Assembly: GCA_016872675.1 (NCBI GenBank)
Contig: VGZG01000029.1
Coordinates: forward strand, 1 to 40,844
Source: Planctomycetota bacterium
GTDB taxonomy: Bacteria > Planctomycetota > UBA1135 > UBA2386
Length of the DNA stretch: 40,844 nucleotides
Reading direction: 5' to 3'
How positions within the stretch are numbered: position 1 is the stretch's first letter; the number at the start of each line of letters is the position of its first letter. The notes beneath the pieces were generated by a model. It was not told where the DNA came from. It saw only the letters and a list, made by a program, of their open reading frames with translations, and searched no databases. Positions 24,025 to 27,741 of this stretch are shown piece after piece. Both the position numbers and the translations under genes were made by a program.

Positions 24025-24621
24025 TCACTCCTCGAGCGCGAGCAGCGGCGAGCGACGGACTTCGTAGCGTGTCCACGCCACGGCGATGGCGTCGGTCGCG
24101 TCGGCCGGCAAGCCATCGACGAGCACGGCTGCCGCCGGCCGCACGAACTGCCGCATCATCGCCGCGACGGTCGATTTGTCGGCGGCGCCGTTGCCAGTCA
24201 CGCAGCGCTTGATGCGCGCCGGCGCAAACTGATGCACGTCGAGCCCCAGGCCCGTCGCCTCGGCGAGCACGACGCCGCGCGCTTCGCCGATGCGCAGCGC
24301 CGCCTGCACGCTCTTGCCGTGGAAGGCCTCCTCGAGCGCGAGTTCGGTCGGCTGTAGCTCGCGCGCCAACGCGCGGAATTGGACGGCGAGCGCGTGCAAC
24401 CGCGCGCCGATCGCGTCGTCGCGCCCGCCCAGGCGCAACACGCCCGCTGCGACGAGGCGGGCGTCGTGGCTGCCGCCGCCGGCGCGCACGACGTTGCTGG
24501 CGCGCAGCGCGATCGGCACGGCAACGCCGCTGGGGCGTCCGGCCGCCGGCGCCACCTCGAGGCAGGCATAGCCCACGACCCGTGTGCCGGGGTCGATGCC
24601 CAGAATCCGTACGACCGCCAC
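24025..24621 (-). CDS. ruvC: Crossover junction endodeoxyribonuclease RuvC
   Basis: A 198-residue Holliday-junction resolvase. The RNase H-like catalytic acids are Asp10 (ILGIDPGTRVVGYA), Glu in ELALEEAFHGKSVQAAL, and the Asp pair in LPADATDAIAVAWT. LGQARG-like IGEARGVVLAEA and NGAADKSTVAAMM are also conserved. It is about 25 residues longer than typical RuvC; the extra segment sits between the first two strands (about residues 24-50, rich in Ala, Gly and Arg). RuvA and RuvB genes are not in the window. The GTG at 24621 is used because it is the only start that retains the first strand; a TACACT -10 lies 7 nt upstream, predicting a leaderless mRNA. Confidence 0.92.
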   Translation of the reverse strand: MAVVRILGIDPGTRVVGYACLEVAPAAGRPSGVAVPIALRASNVVRAGGGSHDARLVAAGVLRLGGRDDAIGARLHALAVQFRALARELQPTELALEEAFHGKSVQAALRIGEARGVVLAEATGLGLDVHQFAPARIKRCVTGNGAADKSTVAAMMRQFVRPAAAVLVDGLPADATDAIAVAWTRYEVRRSPLLALEE

Positions 24622-24628
24622 GCGGCGG

Positions 24629-24638
24629 AGTGTACGGT
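24629..24638. promoter_or_regulatory. Overlapping back-to-back -10 elements of ruvC and ispD
   Basis: AGTGTACGGT holds TACGGT on the plus strand (24633-24638, 8 nt before the ispD GTG) and TACACT on the minus strand (24629-24634, 7 nt before the ruvC GTG). The two hexamers share the central TA. Both genes would be leaderless and the two promoters could not be occupied together. Confidence 0.55.
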
Positions 24639-24646
24639 CTGTCGCC

Positions 24647-25360
24647 GTGAAGGTCGCCATGTTGCTGCTCGCCGCCGGCCGCGGCACGCGCTTCGGCGGG
24701 CCCGTGCCGAAGGCGTGGCTGCCGCTTGGCGGCCGCACGCTGCTGGCGCGCAGCGCCGAACGCCTTGTCCAGGCCCTGCCGGACGGCGCGGCGGCGGAAG
24801 CGCTGGCGTTGGTGCACACCGACGACCGACCGACCTACGTCGCGCAACACCGCGCCGACGTCGAACGCGCGCTCGGCGGCCGCTGCCCGCTGCGCTTCGT
24901 CGACGGCGGCGCGACGCGCCAGGAGTCGCTGCAGAACGGCCTCGCCGCCTGCAGCCCGGACGTCGACCTCGTGCTAGTGCACGACGCCGCCCGCGCGCTG
25001 CTGCCGATCGGGTCGACGCGCGCGTGCATCGCCGCCGCCGCCGCGCACGGCGCGGCTCTGCTCGCGCTGCCGGCGCCGGACACGCTCAAGAAGGTCTCGG
25101 CCGCCGGGCTCGTCGAAGCCACGGTCGACCGCGCCGGCGTCTGGCTGGCGCAGACGCCACAGGTGATCCGGCGCGATCTGCTGCTGCGCGCAATGGCGCA
25201 CGCCGCACGGACCGGATTCGTCGGCACCGACGACGTCTCGCTGGTGGAGCGACTCGGCGAACCCGTCGCGGTCGTCCGCGGGTCGCCCACCAACCTGAAG
25301 ATCACCGCGCCGGCCGACCTGCCGCTGGCCGAAGCGATACTCGCCGCCAACCTCGCATGA
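24647..25360 (+). CDS. ispD: 2-C-methyl-D-erythritol 4-phosphate cytidylyltransferase
   Basis: A 237-residue nucleotidyltransferase. The CTP-binding start is MLLLAAGRGTRFGGPVPKAW, followed by FVDGGATRQESLQNGL, LVLVHDAARALL and the terminal VVRGSPTNLKITAPADLPLAEAI. It makes CDP-methylerythritol in the MEP isoprenoid pathway. The GTG at 24647 (VKVAMLLL) is preferred; the ATG at 24659 is an alternative. It overlaps ispF by four bases (ATGA), a common arrangement, and lies 25 bp from the divergent ruvC start. Confidence 0.95.
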   Translation: MKVAMLLLAAGRGTRFGGPVPKAWLPLGGRTLLARSAERLVQALPDGAAAEALALVHTDDRPTYVAQHRADVERALGGRCPLRFVDGGATRQESLQNGLAACSPDVDLVLVHDAARALLPIGSTRACIAAAAAHGAALLALPAPDTLKKVSAAGLVEATVDRAGVWLAQTPQVIRRDLLLRAMAHAARTGFVGTDDVSLVERLGEPVAVVRGSPTNLKITAPADLPLAEAILAANLA

Positions 25361-25842
25361 ACAACCTCCCCCGCATCGGCCTCGGCATCGACGTGCATCG
25401 ACTCGCGCCGGGCCGCGCCTGCACGCTCGGCGGCGTGCCGTTCCCGTGCGACGTCGGGCCCGTCGGCCACAGCGACGGCGACGCGCTGCTGCACGCCGCC
25501 TGCGACGCCGTGCTCGGCGCCGCAGGCCTCGACGACCTCGGCACGCTGTTCTCTGACCGCGATCCGCAGAACGCGGGCCGCGCGTCAGCCGAGTTCTGCC
25601 ACGAGATCATGCGTCGCGTGCGCGAACGCGGGCTGCGCGTGCTTGGCCTCGACTGCGTCGTCGAGACCGAGGCGCCAAAGCTCAAGCCGCTGCGCGCGGC
25701 GGTGCGCGCCAGCCTCGCGGCGCTGTTCGCAGTCGACCTCGACCGCGTCAATGTGAAGGGCAAGACCGGCGAGAAGGTCGACGCGATCGGTCGCGGCGAG
25801 GCGATGCGCGCGACCGTCGTCGCGCTGCTAGGCGCCGTCTGA
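25357..25842 (+). CDS. ispF: 2-C-methyl-D-erythritol 2,4-cyclodiphosphate synthase
   Basis: A 161-residue protein of standard IspF length. Zinc ligands are in GIDVHRL (Asp and His) and the later HAACDAVLGAAGLDDLG. Other blocks are VGHSDGDALLHAA, LGTLFSDRDPQNAG, VVETEAPKLKP and VNVKGKTGEKVDAIGRGEA. It cyclises CDP-methylerythritol 2-phosphate, two steps after IspD. Its ATG overlaps the ispD stop. Its last 15 bases overlap the 3' end of the convergent ABC exporter gene. Confidence 0.96.
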   Translation: MNNLPRIGLGIDVHRLAPGRACTLGGVPFPCDVGPVGHSDGDALLHAACDAVLGAAGLDDLGTLFSDRDPQNAGRASAEFCHEIMRRVRERGLRVLGLDCVVETEAPKLKPLRAAVRASLAALFAVDLDRVNVKGKTGEKVDAIGRGEAMRATVVALLGAV

Positions 25843-27741
25843 CGGCGCCGCGCCGCCGGCGTAGGCGTCGTACATGCGGCGATAGGCGCCGTTTCGGGCG
25901 TACAGATCCTCGTGCGCGCCGAGCTCGGCGACGCGCCCCTTCTCGAGCACCGCGATGAGGTCGGCGCCGACGATCGTCGACAGGCGGTGCGCGATGACGA
26001 CCGACGTGCGGCCCTTGCGCAGCGCGTCGAGCGCGGCCTGCACCAGCCGCTCGTTCTCGGAGTCGAGCGCGCTGGTCGCCTCGTCGAGGAACAGCACCGC
26101 CGGGTCGCGCACGATCGCGCGGGCGATGGCGAGCCGCTGCTGCTGGCCGCCCGACAGGTTGCCGCCGCGGTCGCCGACGACCGTGTCGTAGCCCTGCGGC
26201 AGCGAGACGATGAAGTCGTGGATGTTGGCGGCCTCCGCAGCGGCTTCGATCTGCGCCTGCGACGCGCCCGGGCGGCCGCATTCGATGTTGGCGCGGATCG
26301 TCGTATTGAAGAGGAACGATTGCTGGCTGACGACGGCGGTGCGGGCGCGCCAGTCGGCGAGCCGCACGTCGCGCAGGTCGAGGCCGTCGACCAGGATCGC
26401 GCCCTTCTCGGGGTCGTGGAAGCGCTGCAGCAGATCGACCGTGGTCGTCTTGCCGCTGCCGGACTCGCCGACCAGCGCGACCGTCGCGCCGGCCGGCACG
26501 CGCAGCGACAACCCGCGCAGCACCGGCTCGGAGCCGTAGCCGAACCAGACATCGCGCAGCTCCAGGTCGCCGCGCACCTGCGGCAGCGGCGTGCCGATGG
26601 CGAGGTCGCGGTCGAGCGGCTCGCGCAGGATGCCTTCGAGCCCGGCGAGCGCGCCGGAGGACTCCATCAGCACGTGGTAACTGCGCGTCAGGCGCTTGAC
26701 GTGCTGGTACGTCGTCGCGAGCGGCATGATCACGAGCGCGACGTCGTCGAAGTGGAGTGACCCGTCGACGAGCACGACCCAGCCGAGCACGACGAGCAGC
26801 GCGCCGAAGCCGGCCTGGTAGCTGACGAACGTCTGCGCCATCGATCGGCCCTTGGCGCGCAGCATCTTGCGCGTGCGATCGAGGAACGTCGTCGTCGTCG
26901 ACTCGAAGTCGCGCAGCATCGCGCCCTCGAGCTGGAACGACTTCACCGTGCGGATGCCGGTCAGGATCTGGTTGAGCGACTCGGTCGTCTCCCCCATCGC
27001 CTGCAGGCTCTTGCTGCTGCGCTTGCTGACCTGCCGGCCCTGCCGCAGCAGCGGGATCGCCATCGCCGGCACCATCAGCGCCAGCACAATCAGCGCCTGC
27101 GGCACGAACCACGCCAGCACGGCGACGTTGCCGAGGATCATCAGCGGATCGACGACGACGTTGTCGCTTGCCAGCTCGAAGCTGCGCTGCATGACCTGCG
27201 TGTCATTGGTCACCTTGCTGATCAGCTCGCCCATGCGCTGGCGGCCGAAGAAGCGCACCGGCAGGCGCAGGAAGCAGCGCGCCAGCTCGCCGCGCAGGTC
27301 GGCGACGATGCGCACGGCGAACAGGCGCGAGATGGTCTGGACGAAGTAGATCGTGAGGGCGCCGAACAGGCCGCAGATCGCCGCGAGCCCGCCGCAGACG
27401 ACCACGACGTTCATGCCAGGGTGATCGAAGGCGAGGCCGAGGCCGCGCATCAGCTCGCCGCTGAGCTCGCGGAACCAGCCGTTGAAATCCTCCGACAGCC
27501 GATTGGCGAGCGTCGGGTCGGCAGGCAGGCCTGGCGCTGGCTGCGGCGGGGCGCCCGCCTCCGACGCCCCGAGTTCGGCCATCAGCGGCTTCACCAGCAC
27601 GAACGGCAGCTTGGTGAAGGCGGCCTCGAGGAAGCCGAAGAGCAGCATCGCCGCGACCATGCCGCGATAGCGGACGATGGCGCCCCAAAGGCGGCGCAGC
27701 AGGCTGCGGAGGGCCTCGCGCGGATCCGACGGTTCGGTCAC
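25828..27741 (-). CDS. MsbA-type ABC exporter (fused permease and ATPase)
   Basis: A 637-residue half-transporter. The membrane domain spans about 1-370 with six predicted helices; a long Pro/Ala-rich extracytoplasmic loop (about 50-105) lies between the first two. The ATPase has Walker A GESGSGKTT, Q-loop SQQSFLFNTT, signature NLSGGQQQRLAIARAI, Walker B VLFLDEATSALD and H-loop VIAHRLST. Such homodimers flip lipids, glycolipids or peptides; sequence alone does not fix the substrate. It starts at GTG 27741 with TAGCAT only 7 nt upstream, predicting a leaderless mRNA. The 3' end overlaps ispF by 15 bp. Confidence 0.92.
   Translation of the reverse strand: MTEPSDPREALRSLLRRLWGAIVRYRGMVAAMLLFGFLEAAFTKLPFVLVKPLMAELGASEAGAPPQPAPGLPADPTLANRLSEDFNGWFRELSGELMRGLGLAFDHPGMNVVVVCGGLAAICGLFGALTIYFVQTISRLFAVRIVADLRGELARCFLRLPVRFFGRQRMGELISKVTNDTQVMQRSFELASDNVVVDPLMILGNVAVLAWFVPQALIVLALMVPAMAIPLLRQGRQVSKRSSKSLQAMGETTESLNQILTGIRTVKSFQLEGAMLRDFESTTTTFLDRTRKMLRAKGRSMAQTFVSYQAGFGALLVVLGWVVLVDGSLHFDDVALVIMPLATTYQHVKRLTRSYHVLMESSGALAGLEGILREPLDRDLAIGTPLPQVRGDLELRDVWFGYGSEPVLRGLSLRVPAGATVALVGESGSGKTTTVDLLQRFHDPEKGAILVDGLDLRDVRLADWRARTAVVSQQSFLFNTTIRANIECGRPGASQAQIEAAAEAANIHDFIVSLPQGYDTVVGDRGGNLSGGQQQRLAIARAIVRDPAVLFLDEATSALDSENERLVQAALDALRKGRTSVVIAHRLSTIVGADLIAVLEKGRVAELGAHEDLYARNGAYRRMYDAYAGGAAPSDGA

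Follow-up and report, generated by a model that had tools for sequence, protein, structure and literature searches.

The ruvC/ispD locus raises the question of how two divergent genes can be transcribed from an intergenic gap of 25 bp. The window (the whole 40,844-nucleotide stretch analysed, contig C29) belongs to a genome of 3.58 Mb in 182 contigs with a GC content of ~72%, for which Planctomycetota MAGs are the closest relatives that carry a name. The first-pass annotation of this DNA had read the gap as two −10-type promoters, each at leaderless distance from a GTG and fused at one TA, so that DNA repair and isoprenoid synthesis would be transcribed in mutual exclusion. We know of no physiological or functional link between ruvC and ispD.

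The genes and the gap between them are as follows.

24025–24621, minus strand: ruvC, GTG start at 24621
24622–24646: 25-bp gap separating the divergent start codons of ruvC and ispD
24647–25360, plus strand: ispD, GTG start
25357–25842, plus strand: ispF, its start overlapping the ispD stop (ATGA)

IspD (NCBIfam TIGR00453) and IspF (NCBIfam) were identified above their cut-offs; RuvC was matched by its NCBIfam profile with an E value of 1.8e-29, under the model's curated cut-off. The head-to-head adjacency of ruvC and ispD is kept across families of the order (loci L166–L188), with RuvC identities of ~32–47%, and represents an old synteny.

Results

Two hexamers meet at one TA

The gap contains the following features.

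24629–24638: shared element of ten bases, ANNNTANNNT (AGTGTACGGT), with 8/10 columns identical across 21 genomes
24629–24634, minus strand (read from 24634 to 24629): TACACT, −10-like hexamer of ruvC at 7 nt from the GTG; 21/21 in the clade
24633–24638, plus strand: TACGGT, −10-like hexamer of ispD at 8 nt from the GTG; the family has TANNNT in 33/33
24633–24634: TA dinucleotide belonging to both hexamers; wherever the hexamers overlap (26 of 52 gaps), they do so by two bases

Inspection of the letters bore out the gap length, the two hexamers with their common TA and the spacing to the GTGs exactly as first annotated. The opposite-strand −10-like hexamers thus share bases, as they also do in 26 of 52 related gaps. 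The pattern CAY-N7..8-ANNNTANNNT-N7..8-RTG had a single match in the 3.58-Mb genome, the ruvC/ispD gap itself, and none in the control.

By geometry, the divergent starts would lie 23 to 26 bp apart. The TA overlap gives 23 bp if both starts are placed 7 bases past the −10 (24645 and 24622); starts exactly at the GTGs give 26 bp, just beyond the 7–25 bp by which bidirectional promoters are defined. The element has the 23-bp geometry and does not belong to the 18-bp class (TANNNTA, with positions −7 and −11 reciprocally paired), since the overlap was two bases in 26/26 overlapping gaps. TGn is the extended −10 motif. It did not fit the ruvC/ispD element, where the TG stands one base too close.

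Start codons at leaderless distance

The spacing was compared with that of other genes in a 720-kb sample of the genome holding 449 ORFs with coding-like GC3. TANNNT stood 6–9 nt upstream of 40/2882 ATG or GTG codons versus 33/14617 control codons, a six-fold excess. The window genes, at 7 and 8 nt, therefore show the spacing of −10-motif leaderless genes in a genome where this spacing is enriched. A C directly preceded the start in 30 of the 40 candidate leaderless genes, both window genes included. In a clade of 21 genomes, it preceded the ruvC start in 19/21 and the ispD start in 16/18 cases (coding strand). Such a C would fit an initiator of the pyrimidine-purine type placed on the start codon. 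A leaderless-spaced hexamer, TAGCAT, also stands 7 nt before the GTG of the MsbA-like ABC transporter gene at 27741 (minus strand).

Conservation in the family of the window

The family of the window (f1) was sampled in 34 genomes; the gap was visible in 33 and lost to a cut contig in one. The contig of G007 begins inside ispD, and G066, whose match starts inside ispD near a contig start, was left out. Apparent second copies of counted genomes (L031–L042) were omitted from the counts. Starts were taken from the alignment to the window's proteins, with L025 corrected by hand; the ruvC start was GTG or ATG in 33/33 rows and that of ispD GTG throughout.

All 33 readable members had TANNNT 6–9 nt before both start codons. 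The TA was shared in 24/33 (gaps of 23–25 bp), and the boxes were separate in 9/33 (46–107 bp). In the 21-genome clade, each column of AGTGTA was invariant (21/21); the next column held A, C, G or T (A in 16), followed by G in 19, G in 21 and T in 21. The element averaged 1.84 bits versus 0.92 bits for its flanks, and only 2 of 100000 random picks of ten among 24 well-filled columns matched its conservation. The expectation that the ten bases would be conserved while the flanks vary was thus confirmed in this clade. Long gaps in relatives, named at the outset as evidence against the reading, do occur in part of the tree, but there each hexamer stays beside its own gene, still next to its start codon.

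The second family and chance controls

Loci were also drawn from two further sets. From the one with 29 loci, 16 were kept; L165, L185, L189 and L190 had no ruvC match, and nine with an ambiguous ruvC start were dropped (L167, L169, L170, L174, L175, L180, L181, L184 and L186). In the other, of 16 loci, L201 and L207 were without a ruvC match. The counts outside f1 are softer because starts were picked there after viewing the sequence, the softest cases being L210, L166 and L205.

In f5, the second family of the order, both hexamers were found in 19/19 readable loci, with the TA shared in 2 and the boxes separate in 17. The ruvC hexamer of f5 was TAGCAT in 15/19 loci, whereas the ispD hexamer varied. 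Families other than f1 and f5 showed both hexamers in 3/8 kept rows.

When f1 and f5 were pooled, both hexamers stood at 6–9 nt in 52/52 gaps, as against 0.06 of 52 expected after shuffling each gap; the maximum in any of 2000 shuffled sets was 2. The TA was shared in 26 of these gaps and the boxes were apart in the other 26 (28–169 bp). TANNNT is a loose motif, which is what could be said for a chance occurrence in a compact gap. In view of the shuffled gaps and of an element conserved against drifting flanks, chance was rejected and retains a negligible probability.

Synonymous constraint inside the neighbouring genes

Two further stretches lie within the coding sequences.

24604–24609: ruvC codons 6 and 5 (ATT, CGG), synonymously invariant in 21/21; the ispD strand reads AATCCG, at ~−41 to −36 relative to the putative ispD promoter
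24652–24670: ispD from the last part of codon 2 through codon 8, where the predicted ruvC promoter would have its −35 and upstream DNA, with GCGACC at 24657–24652

The clade used ATT at ruvC codon 6 in 21/21 genomes, although ATT makes up 6% of the Ile codons in these genes, and CGG at codon 5 in 21/21. For synonymous constraint, ruvC codons 6 and 5 ranked 1 and 2 of 117 columns; ispD codons 6, 8, 3 and 4 ranked 1, 2, 3 and 5 of 125. The other f1 members, 12 in number, had ATC at ruvC codon 6 in 9/11 (rank 87/104), and ispD codon 6 fell to rank 69/118 among them. This constraint is clade-specific, with two counter-points: ruvC codon 5 is biased to -GG in the non-sharing relatives too (rank 1/104), and among the 12 other members, ispD codons 3 and 8 still come 8th and 9th of 118.

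The constrained codons lie ~22–36 bp from the shared TA, where the −35 and the adjoining upstream DNA of each promoter are expected. With positions counted by hand, the ruvC −35 position reads GCGACC, in which a GAC core is present, and the ispD −35 position reads TACGAC in the window, a weak match with AATCCG just upstream. At 23 bp from the ispD −10, AATCCG is too distant for a standard −35 hexamer. The pattern suggests that the constrained codons act as the upstream element of the neighbour's promoter; constraint on early codons of leaderless genes could alternatively come from translation.

Recurrence of the merged state

A tree of RuvC and IspD (IQ-TREE, 55 rows, 428 columns) was used to follow the shared and separate states by parsimony, which required a minimum of 4 changes between them. 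TA sharing therefore looks convergent and was probably reached several times independently. The first origin is the 21-member clade (support 98/97). The second is L163, whose sister L030 is separate (67 bp), the third L026 with L028, whose nearest relative L027 is separate (65 bp), and the fourth L183 in f5. L210 may be a fifth origin or share that of L183. Some of the forks on which the number of origins depends have modest support (94/53 where L027 joins L026 and L028; open forks in f5). Common descent with losses may be an alternative to several origins. The letters of the element differ among origins (AGTGTAAGGT, ATGCTACGTT, ATGCTACGCT, ATGCTAACCT and ATGGTACCCT), as convergence predicts, although those of L163 and L026/L028 are alike.

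Three f5 loci of genus g48 (L203, L208 and L209) retain ATGCTAACCT, shared in L183, by ispD, while ruvC starts at a greater distance and has a TAGGCT to itself. This layout is possibly an intermediate between the merged and separate states.

Other gene pairs

The loose pattern (N6..9) gave 6 sites in the window's own genome versus 3 in the control; 3 of them are flanked on both sides by divergent ORFs whose GC3 is coding-like. Across the 34 genomes, it showed no excess over the control in most. The pattern alone is thus no detector, and only gene-anchored cases count. The shared-TA layout was seen between a trypsin-like and an FG-GAP gene (Pfam; L191, G000:C24:24836-24867, gap 26), mostly as AATCTATGGT in relatives and with the pattern in 12/15 genomes examined. 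It was also seen between a PLP-dependent enzyme and a DUF1801-like gene, the DUF1801 match being below cut-off (L140, G000:C21:5760-5787, gap 22); this pair is shared in G001 and separate in G002. TANNNTA of the 18-bp type occurred across the window's genome at one site versus four in the control. That site (L195, G000:C109:2345-2373), flanked by an HTH gene and, in divergent orientation, an ORF with coding-like GC3, may accordingly be due to chance.

Discussion

Weighing the explanations

With these results, we regard it as highly probable that the gap of 25 bp serves as a minimal, double-leaderless variant of the bidirectional promoters described for E. coli (PMC12825309). A Shine-Dalgarno reading would leave ruvC alone with a promoter and turn the TAAGGT seen before ispD into the ribosome-binding signal of a transcript starting elsewhere. 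A four-letter match to the generic anti-SD complement does stand before ispD in 16/33 f1 members (TAAG, AAGG or AGGT in 15 of them). The other 17, the window included, lack a match yet keep TANNNT at the same distance (33/33), and separated relatives carry TAGCGT, TAGCCT or TAGGCT instead. As a sole explanation it was rejected on these counts, and we consider it extremely unlikely. If a DNA-binding regulator used the element as an operator for both ruvC and ispD, this would account for the conservation of twelve bases, GAGTGTAAGGTC, beyond the needs of TANNNT. An operator word should recur at the genes of a regulon, but GAGTGTAAGGTC had only 12 matches in 34 genomes, and 9 of these fall at the ruvC/ispD gap, which argues against a regulon. 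The symmetry, moreover, does not extend beyond the promoter-critical bases GA, TA and TC, and other origins use other letters (ATGCTACGTT, ATGCTAACCT, ATGGTACCCT). An operator is therefore very unlikely.

Mutual exclusion as the function of the fusion, setting DNA repair against isoprenoid synthesis, was the remaining part of the original reading. It draws on the depth of conservation (21 genomes) and on the statement in PMC12825309 that overlapping −10 elements cannot be occupied both ways. The boxes are, however, separate in 9/33 f1 and 17/19 f5 relatives, so exclusion is not needed; no physiological ruvC–ispD link is known to us. In addition, basal activity was reported as too low for competition at the five bidirectional promoters tested in E. 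coli (PMC12825309); exclusion therefore need not regulate anything. We consider this function unlikely. Of the first-pass reading, the two conserved, leaderless-spaced −10-type boxes fused at a TA stood, and the intended exclusion was left without support as worded, 26 relatives having separate boxes. The fusion is real, conserved and probably convergent, and physical exclusion of two polymerases at the shared element is likely; exclusion as regulation is unproven.

A model for the fused promoter

The preferred reading, a double-leaderless bidirectional promoter, would work as follows. The same ten bases would accept RNA polymerase with the housekeeping sigma factor facing either way. The −10 would be TACACT for a leaderless ruvC mRNA and TACGGT for a leaderless ispD-ispF mRNA, the palindromic TA providing −12/−11 to both promoters. 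The −35 and upstream DNA of each promoter would sit in the first ~eight codons of the opposite gene, and a single polymerase would occupy the site at a time. The ancestor may have had head-to-head ruvC and ispD with two separate −10-adjacent promoters, the spacer shrinking until the boxes merged. The merged state would then be kept because any insertion within the element would disable one promoter or both. Transcription from these boxes, the leaderless mRNAs, exclusion and this lock-in are what we infer from the sequence.

Relation to known promoters

Overlapping −10 elements on opposite strands are reported for the bidirectional promoters of E. coli and Salmonella by the Grainger and Wade groups (PMC12825309, PMC10268837). 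There, a start spacing of 18 bp is described as commonest, with 10 and 23 bp also common, and polymerase as bound in one direction at a time (PMC12825309 for the latter). The ruvC/ispD gap resembles them in the overlap and in a geometry that can give 23 bp. It differs in that neither mRNA is predicted to have a leader, so that the element would form the core of the 25-bp intergenic region; in that the upstream DNA is coding; and in that conservation of the site extends through a clade within one family.

The TANNNT 6–9 nt before each start matches the −10-motif or TA-led leaderless genes reported for Deinococcus-Thermus (PMC12340547), in a bacteria-wide survey (PMC3160421) and for M. tuberculosis (PMC3898074). 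TACACT is given as the commonest −10-motif of D. radiodurans, 6–7 bp before the ORF (PMC12340547), and a high-GC genome is a further point in common. Unlike the ruvC/ispD pair, the genes in these works are treated singly; a word search of the texts found neither 'divergent' nor 'bidirectional' in PMC12340547 and no 'divergent' in PMC3160421. For M. tuberculosis, closely juxtaposed divergent promoters are mentioned, among them the prpD/Rv1129c pair, both leaderless (PMC3898074). Judged by titles and abstract openings, the literature searched showed no description of a shared leaderless promoter.

Implications

Knowledge of bacterial bidirectional promoters comes mostly from the mapping of transcription starts in a handful of species, and it is not clear if their −10 sharing results from selection or is incidental. 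The ruvC/ispD locus offers one orthologous pair as a natural experiment, with merged and separate states within one family. Tentatively, and at somewhat less than even probability, we propose a generalization: double-leaderless pairs can fuse their promoters at one TA, with the first codons of each gene synonymously constrained as the upstream element of the other promoter. Such a dual-purpose module of ~75 bp may have arisen more than once, with four or more origins at ruvC/ispD and others at further pairs, and would be an evolutionary trap because one promoter or both would be lost to an insertion in the shared element. The findings suggest that ~25 bp is enough for a head-to-head pair of leaderless genes to run on, and that the promoter of a neighbour can reside in synonymous codons.
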